Source of the DNA: Parvularculales bacterium
GTDB taxonomy: Bacteria; Pseudomonadota; Alphaproteobacteria; JAPOUT01; JBAJNM01
NCBI GenBank assembly: GCA_036881865.1
Contig: JBAJNM010000017.1
Location: 1 to 34,322 of the forward strand
DNA length: 34,322 nucleotides
Reading direction: 5' to 3'
Shown: piece after piece, positions 32,604 to 33,246 of the stretch
Position numbering within the stretch: position 1 is the first letter of the stretch
Layout: every line of letters begins with the position of its first letter
Made by a program: the position numbers and the translations under genes
The notes under the pieces: model-generated
Told to the model about the DNA's origin: nothing
Database searches by the model: none
What the model saw: only the letters and a program-made list of their open reading frames with translations

Positions 32604-32632
32604 CTTGAAATTCCCTCCTTAGCATCCCACAT
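32604..32632 (+). promoter_or_regulatory. Sigma-32 (heat-shock) promoter of hsp20
   Basis: CTTGAA at 32604-32609 (CTTGAAA with the next base) is followed after 16 bases by CCCACAT at 32626-32632, close to the RpoH consensus CTTGAA and CCCCATnT. The start should be near 32640, giving a leader of about 70 bases before the Hsp20 ATG. Confidence 0.65.
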
Positions 32633-32640
32633 GAGCGTTA

Positions 32641-32710
32641 TGAGGCAGGTGCCTTACGGGCCTCCCTTAACATAGTGATTAGATGAAACATTGCTTCAAA
32701 GGAGAATGAC
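32641..32710 (+). promoter_or_regulatory. Candidate ROSE-type RNA thermometer in the hsp20 leader
   Basis: The leader ends in TTGCTTCAAAGGAG, where TTGCT (32691-32695) sits just before the Shine-Dalgarno AGGAG (32700-32704). ROSE elements in alphaproteobacterial small heat-shock genes carry a U(U/C)GCU motif that pairs imperfectly with the Shine-Dalgarno at low temperature and opens on heating. Here CTTC can pair with GGAG around AAA. An upstream hairpin, GAGGC (32642-32646) with GCCTC (about 32660-32664), gives the second stem expected. The element is short compared with known ones. Confidence 0.5.
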
Positions 32711-33175
32711 ATGAGCTATTTTGATTTTTCACCTCTTTACAGGTCTACAGTCGGCTTTGATCGCCTTGCGCCTTTTTTTGATACTCTAACCAAGGGTGAC
32801 GATAATTCCGGGTATCCGCCCTATAACATTGAGCGGACCGGTGAGAATGACTATCGCATCACCATGGCGGTTGCCGGTTTTGAGGACGAGGACTTAACGG
32901 TTGAAGCCAAGCAAAACGAACTGTTGATTACGGGAAAACGTGAACAAGATGAGCAAACGACTTATCTTTATCACGGCATTGCAGGTCGCAGTTTTGAACG
33001 CCGGTTTCAGTTGGCAGACCATGTCAACGTTACAGGTGCTCATCTATCCAACGGATTGTTGTATGTAGAACTCGTCCGTGAAATTCCGGAGGAAATGCGC
33101 TCACGCCGTATCCATATTTCAAATGGATCAAACACAGACAAGGCCATAATTCAAGCCGGTGCTGACGCGGCGTAA
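32711..33175 (+). CDS. Small heat-shock protein, Hsp20/IbpA type
   Basis: An ATP-independent chaperone that holds unfolding proteins. In 154 residues it shows the IbpA-type N-terminus (SPLYRSTVGFDRLAPFFDTL), PPYNIERTGENDYRITMAVAGF opening the alpha-crystallin domain, the GIAGRSFERRFQLADHV segment and the LSNGLLYVELVREIPEE strand. The tail is short. AGGAG lies seven bases before the ATG. Heat-shock control is expected from the sigma-32-like promoter and the leader. It is a single-gene transcript closed by a strong terminator. Confidence 0.95.
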   Translation: MSYFDFSPLYRSTVGFDRLAPFFDTLTKGDDNSGYPPYNIERTGENDYRITMAVAGFEDEDLTVEAKQNELLITGKREQDEQTTYLYHGIAGRSFERRFQLADHVNVTGAHLSNGLLYVELVREIPEEMRSRRIHISNGSNTDKAIIQAGADAA

Positions 33176-33204: not shown

Positions 33205-33246
33205 AAAGAGGCGTTTTGGCAGATTTTTCTCCAAAGCGCCTCTTTT
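33205..33246 (+). terminator. Rho-independent terminator after hsp20
   Basis: A 15-bp stem, with 5' arm 33205-33219 (starting AAAGAGGCG) and 3' arm 33231-33245 (ending CGCCTCTTT), contains one G.U pair and encloses an 11-base loop. Beyond the stem is a T-rich run (TTTTACTTTTTCTCTTTTT). It separates hsp20 from the convergent tamB gene. The minus-strand side has no comparable T-run, so it should act mainly on hsp20. Confidence 0.9.

Follow-up and report, generated by a model that had tools for sequence, protein, structure and literature searches.

The 34,322-nt stretch of DNA analysed here (the window) carries, upstream of an ibpA-like small heat-shock gene, what is very probably a short RNA thermometer of the ROSE type under an RpoH (sigma-32) promoter, both predicted from sequence to control that gene. 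It is a compact form of a known kind of leader, and the assignment is well supported. A divergent short ROSE element under RpoH is the most likely reading because the motif found in relatives, the models made without the window, the promoter and a second copy of the gene all agree. The first-pass annotation had proposed this same combination, and its core is supported by the comparison with relatives and by those models. The promoter and both hairpins are held within the 150 bases that separate the upstream carboxyltransferase gene (end 32560) from hsp20, arranged as follows:

32604–32609, + strand: −35 element CTTGAA, RpoH-type; top promoter-matrix match in the window and identical in the second copy
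32626–32632, + strand: −10 element CCCACAT, spaced 16 nt from the −35 element; identical in the second copy
32638–32640, + strand: predicted transcription start region, placed from the position of the −10 element and giving a 5′ UTR of ~72 nt
32641–32669, + strand: hairpin I, with a GGTGCC-TTAC-GGGCC core, a bulged G and the outer stem UGAGG/CCUUA; top match of model R2, supported by fold and covariation
32670–32688, + strand: linker, the site of hairpin II in most sampled relatives; placed from sequence, folds and spacing
32689–32708, + strand: ROSE-type thermosensing hairpin, predicted to sequester the Shine-Dalgarno (SD) sequence; top match of model R1, supported by family covariation and the fold up to the ATG
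32691–32695, + strand: UUGCU anti-SD motif of the U(U/C)GCU type, seen as T[TC]GCT in relatives
32700–32704, + strand: AGGAG SD, read from the sequence
32711–33175, + strand: hsp20/IbpA-like small heat-shock gene (154 aa), assigned from Pfam, NCBIfam and the alignment with Escherichia coli IbpA

The 154-aa product matches the Pfam family PF00011 (HSP20) over the cut-off (E 6.1e-20), and the best NCBIfam model for it is IbpA (E 1.3e-48), with a score of 164.6 bits that lies below the cut-off of 212. Identity is 51% with E. coli IbpA and 40% with IbpB. Its five named matches in the protein scan, from Aureimonas, Rhizobium (two), Frigidibacter and Octadecabacter, are all from alphaproteobacterial genera, which suggests that the window comes from the Alphaproteobacteria too. 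By its PF00011 match and its closeness to IbpA, the leader is the 5′ UTR of a small heat-shock gene, the usual location of ROSE-like thermometers. Directly upstream of hsp20 is a tandem pair of carboxyltransferase genes (PF01039; 29441–32560).

A protein match at 1e-20 was found in 279 of the 385 genomes of the class searched, a set that includes three other genomes of the window's order. We handled 120 loci, of which 119 gave an ATG (L080 was dropped); these comprise 117 relatives, the window and the second copy. The leaders of the relatives were drawn from the better-scoring part of the matches listed and from other protein-scan matches and do not form a random sample.

The promoter matrix was trained on the promoters of 94 relatives, excluding both the window and its second copy. 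Its −10 form is CCYANAT, and the spacing is 15 or 16 in 92 of the 94 training promoters. The element CTTGA[AT] was located 88–170 bases before the ATG in 96 of the 119 leaders. In the window, the site at 32604 scored 17.6, the best on both strands (next best 12.4). Training promoters have a median score of 21.1 and a lower quartile of 18.5; with a score below that quartile, the window promoter is a fair, not a top, member of the relatives' set. The site agrees with the sigma-32 consensus CTTGAA-N(13-18)-CNCCATAT, as given in an excerpt of PMC3669281, and CCCACAT departs once from CCATAT. The first-pass annotation had described a near-consensus RpoH promoter about 70 bases before the gene. The promoter is borne out as the top matrix match; the distance does not apply to it, with the −10 element starting 85 and ending 79 bases before the ATG and the −35 element starting 107 bases before it. 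The figure of about 70 bases fits the predicted transcription start instead.

The same genome encodes a sigma-32 factor (287 aa, C8), which scores 321.6 bits with NF005693 against a cut-off of 315 and falls below the cut-off of TIGR02392. Upon heat shock, RpoH would thus be expected from the promoter sequence to raise hsp20 transcription. Against the combined reading of RpoH and thermometer, the upstream regions of groES and clpB in this genome score just moderately with the matrix, at 8.4 and 7.1, respectively. In locus L144 (147–2292), the open frame ahead of the sigma-32 gene would encode a 413-aa protein rich in lysine and alanine.

At low temperature, the last hairpin is predicted to pair CAUU(G)CUU with GAGAAUG, leaving G32693 bulged and hiding AGGAG, as indicated by covariation, by the alignment to model R1 and by the fold of the leader as far as the ATG. 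In the model alignment and the fold, G32693 is unpaired between a U-A and a C-G pair; this is the bulged G by which ROSE-like thermometers are defined in PMC11342760. In keeping with ROSE elements, the U(U/C)GCU motif pairs imperfectly with the SD within the hairpin nearest the 3′ end, a feature on which folds with longer coding sequence are mixed. The bulged G and the A-U and G-U pairs would weaken the hairpin, such that warming could open AGGAG and allow translation to start.

Conservation among relatives is consistent with this pairing. The first-pass annotation had placed TTGCT so as to mask AGGAG; both motifs lie where it put them, and their pairing covaries in relatives and fits R1. Its proposed comparison with relatives likewise turned out in its favour: 113 of the 117 relatives have T[TC]GCT no more than 45 nt from the start codon, the exceptions being L021, L058, L064 and L090. 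For covariation analysis we used an alignment (A3) of 87 of the 117 relatives, hand-picked without a fixed rule and covering the fixed stretch from −38 to +3; the other 30 were held out. A3 folds as one hairpin with a bulged G, in which 95.0% of cells are paired and seven of nine pairs show changes on both sides. Double-change cells numbered 75, against 21.8 in shuffles, and the covariation score was 0.452, against 0.264 in shuffles and reached by 0 of 500 of them. Paired percentage, double-change cells and covariation score were all above every slid version of the alignment; the counts of double-change pairs and of pair types in A3 were not.

The covariance model of the thermosensing hairpin (R1) was made with the window and the second copy left out. 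Its best match in the 34-kb window was at 32675–32715 (17.6 bits, E 0.0022; next 13.9 bits). Seven of the nine R1 consensus pairs form in the window hairpin, each of a pair type seen in the family, and the two outermost remain unformed. Among the 30 held-out relatives, R1 matched 23 at E ≤1 with 10.3–34.3 bits, a range that includes the window's score. Genome-wide, R1 places the two hsp20 leaders second and third (18.2 and 17.6 bits). R1 alone is not specific, because a 19.7-bit match elsewhere in the genome outranks both of them; this top match, on C39, lies antisense to a 609-aa open frame.

Further upstream, hairpin I had been described as an extra GAGGC/GCCTC hairpin. A hairpin at this position is supported as the top R2 match, in a different register: the family register consists of UGAGG/CCUUA, AGGU/GCCU and CC/GG with a bulged G. 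The alignment for hairpin I (A1) contains 68 of the 96 relatives with a match to a regular expression and was chosen by the expression, a fold-energy limit, the bulge and the distance. This selection biases A1 towards structure: it accounts for the invariant GC and GG columns and for some of the pairing. Of its cells, 89.2% are paired; it has 127 double-change cells against 47.8 in shuffles, and its covariation score was reached by 0 of 500 shuffles. The count of double-change pairs in A1 was reached by 74 of 500 shuffles and that of pair types by 56 of 500.

R2, the covariance model of hairpin I, was likewise made without the window and the second copy. Its best match in the window was at 32639–32671 (16.7 bits, E 0.071; next 14.1 bits), with one consensus pair mismatched. 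In the whole-genome search with R2, the window match is absent among the 150 of 255 candidates that were scored (listed scores 16.3 and 15.5; window 16.7). The R1 and R2 matches in the window adjoin each other in the correct order. By these models both hairpins are above chance, each being the top match in 34 kb for a model made without the window. An alignment of full leaders (A2, 56 of the 68 in A1) recovered the last hairpin with RNAalifold and missed hairpins I and II, probably as a result of misaligned variable spacers. Because of this, the two hairpins were modelled separately and not as one full-length model.

These matches bear on the possibility of an ordinary leader in which TTGCT faces the SD by accident. 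Genome-wide there are 30 instances of the arrangement TYGCT..RGGAG..ATG and 12 of a reversed control, and the window gives no Rfam match, both of which leave some room for coincidence. However, R1 and R2, which model separate hairpins, coincide at one place with the promoter-matrix match and with the gene family, and the motif is carried by the leaders of relatives, a conservation that contradicts an accident. We regard a chance origin as highly improbable.

The ROSE reading has to accommodate that missing Rfam match. A match to the Rfam ROSE models had been put forward as a check, and here the expectation failed: the models gave no match in the window at the gathering threshold or at a permissive one (E up to 10), and the window leader does not reach the 45-bit gathering threshold of RF00435. 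Over the whole genome, RF00435 gave a single 18-bit match, on another contig. Weak matches to non-ROSE Rfam families in the permissive scans of the window were taken as chance. The positive control, E. coli ibpA, was found by RF01832 with 100.4 bits. The missing match says little against the ROSE reading, because Rfam at gathering score also missed the leaders of 73 of 74 relatives. These 74 of the 117 were searched either at the gathering threshold only (54) or at E ≤0.1 (20). The sole leader to pass RF00435 was L067, with 45.8 bits against the cut-off of 45; among the 20 searched permissively, whole-model matches below the cut-off were obtained for L075 (44.7 bits), L063 (41.9), L078 (37.4), L074 (34.6) and L065 (33.7). 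We read this as suggesting that the relatives' leaders are homologous to the described ROSE family, that the window is a divergent member and that the Rfam model is narrow. At its cut-off the Rfam ROSE model thus catches one leader in 74, though two covarying hairpins and a promoter of the RpoH type are common to most of the leaders compared, and a broader ROSE model is needed for the leaders of this class (L003–L036, L042–L082).

The window leader is shorter than those of most relatives, and the difference is located in the linker. Neither its sequence nor its folds contain a GC-rich hairpin at 32670–32688. The gap from the hairpin I core to T[TC]GCT is 28 nt, against a median of 51.5 nt in 96 relatives; these spacing figures were obtained with another expression, which put hairpin I in the wrong place in L003 and L056 at least. 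From the −35 element to the ATG there are 107 nt; the median over 96 leaders, window and copy among them, is 129. Hairpin I is predicted to be a stable hairpin at the 5′ end, and the leader has no counterpart of the middle hairpin that most sampled relatives carry. By reading, L057, L070 and L071 (94–108 nt) look equally short, without hairpin II and with the anti-SD motif kept; L057 and L070 belong to one family and L071 to another. The two-hairpin form thus seems, judging from these sequences, to occur in three families of the class as sampled, the window's own included. At ~72 nt from the predicted start, with two hairpins, the leader is within the range of ROSE-like elements (60 to >100 nt, two to four stem-loops) quoted in an excerpt of PMC10474464.

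The loss of the middle hairpin admits another explanation, a vestigial ROSE element that has no useful temperature response and leaves heat control to RpoH alone. In addition to the missing hairpin, this explanation draws on the folding results given below, namely an unremarkable fold, a minimum-energy fold without the ROSE hairpin and competing folds once coding sequence is included. However, the three short leaders just described apparently lack hairpin II as well and retain the anti-SD motif, and, according to an excerpt of PMC3669281, the Pseudomonas thermosensing hairpin alone confers heat control. The second copy, described below, also speaks against decay: it has diverged without a substitution in either remaining hairpin. 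We consider a vestigial element unlikely next to a working short ROSE.

Folding at 25–42 °C had been suggested as a check, with a result that is partly favourable. Predicted AGGAG pairing in the leader from 32639 up to the start codon averages 0.94 at 25 °C, 0.82 at 37 °C and 0.71 at 42 °C. Adding 12 nt of coding sequence gave 0.98, 0.94 and 0.90 at these temperatures, and adding 32 nt gave 0.67, 0.48 and 0.43, with a ROSE-pair probability of 0.37 at 25 °C. On the unfavourable side, the 101-nt segment 32640–32740 showed no extra stability over shuffles (z −0.09), and its minimum-energy fold lacks the ROSE hairpin and has AGGAG in a loop. Over the 119 leaders, with the SD placed by a crude rule, the means were 0.76, 0.73 and 0.71 at 25, 37 and 42 °C. 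Folding does not decide the matter, because the same calculation hardly responds to temperature over these leaders. Single-sequence folding is equivocal, and we take the predicted folds as weak evidence either way for a thermometer.

The second hsp20 copy is partial. It is located on contig C54 (14142–14470; L037, L038), encodes 58 aa that are 95% identical to the window protein and is cut by the contig end. About 155 upstream bases are homologous, followed by a different upstream context; a paralogue and a strain variant are both possible. Over 32604–32713 (110 nt) it differs from the window by seven substitutions and two indels. None of the seven substitutions falls in the 62 nt of the −35 element, the −10 element and both hairpins (chance 0.002, substitutions only). 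One of the indels adds an A to the A run bordering hairpin I, whose sequence is unaffected.

It has long been known that small heat-shock genes of alpha- and gammaproteobacteria can be preceded by ROSE elements, as passages of PMC4166951 and PMC2873474 describe, and genes with a ROSE element in Sinorhizobium are noted as rpoH-dependent in an excerpt of PMC3989490. The closest parallel is Pseudomonas ibpA (Krajewski et al, 2013), which, according to PMC3669281, has a sigma-32 promoter and a 61–62-nt two-hairpin ROSE leader that is heat-dependent in reporters, its 3′ hairpin being sufficient. The combination of an RpoH promoter with a two-hairpin ROSE element is therefore not new. The leader had been called short, with just two hairpins and perhaps a minimal ROSE; the absence of hairpin II and a length below that of most relatives agree with this, and a ROSE element of two hairpins has a precedent in Pseudomonas. 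In the literature searched, in which the main survey (Waldminghaus et al, 2005) figures by citation only, we noticed no short two-hairpin ROSE in alphaproteobacteria.

The window shares with Pseudomonas the ibpA gene, the sigma-32 promoter, the two hairpins and the U(U/C)GCU motif that pairs with the SD in the 3′ hairpin, whereas its hairpin I is of its own class's type (GGYGCC..GGGYC with a bulged G). With RF00435 ROSE it has in common a homologous position and gene, and relatives with the same hairpins reach 45.8 bits at most in matches spanning the full model; the window itself does not score and is without the middle hairpin. The RF01832 ROSE_2 element of E. coli ibpA belongs to the same gene family and provides the same kind of control, but its leader differs, and both R1 and R2 miss it. 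A weak R1 match of 8.7 bits lies just upstream of E. coli ibpB (L150:2908–2923). The leader set compared here offers natural variants from which the contributions of hairpins I and II could be worked out.

The E. coli parallel raises a different role for the leader, as mainly a binding site for IbpA itself, by which the protein would repress its own synthesis until aggregates titrate it, with melting secondary. Excerpts of PMC10474464 report that E. coli IbpA binds its own leader and represses its own translation, for which R93 and an aromatic residue at position 34 are needed, and suggest, from sequence conservation alone, that the same holds in alphaproteobacteria. In the alignment with E. 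coli IbpA, the window protein has R93 opposite R93 and Y35 opposite Y34, and R93 is present in 59 of 59 aligned proteins, the window's included. The bulged-G anti-SD motif is, on the other hand, the signature of a thermometer. We judge it improbable that IbpA binding is the main function, and such binding can coexist with a thermometer. By analogy with E. coli, self-repression by IbpA as a further layer here is speculation. It is possible, though we would not expect it, that RpoH, a working ROSE without the middle hairpin and IbpA repression together give a single short leader, outside the gammaproteobacteria, three layers of control; the class-shared hairpin I, with its bulged G and GGYGCC..GGGYC core, might then be part of the RNA that IbpA recognises.

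Downstream of the short ROSE leader and its gene, an inverted repeat, AAAGAGGCG..CGCCTCTTTT, was read by eye at 33205–33246, between hsp20 and a convergent TamB-like gene, and from its sequence looks like a terminator shared by the two genes.
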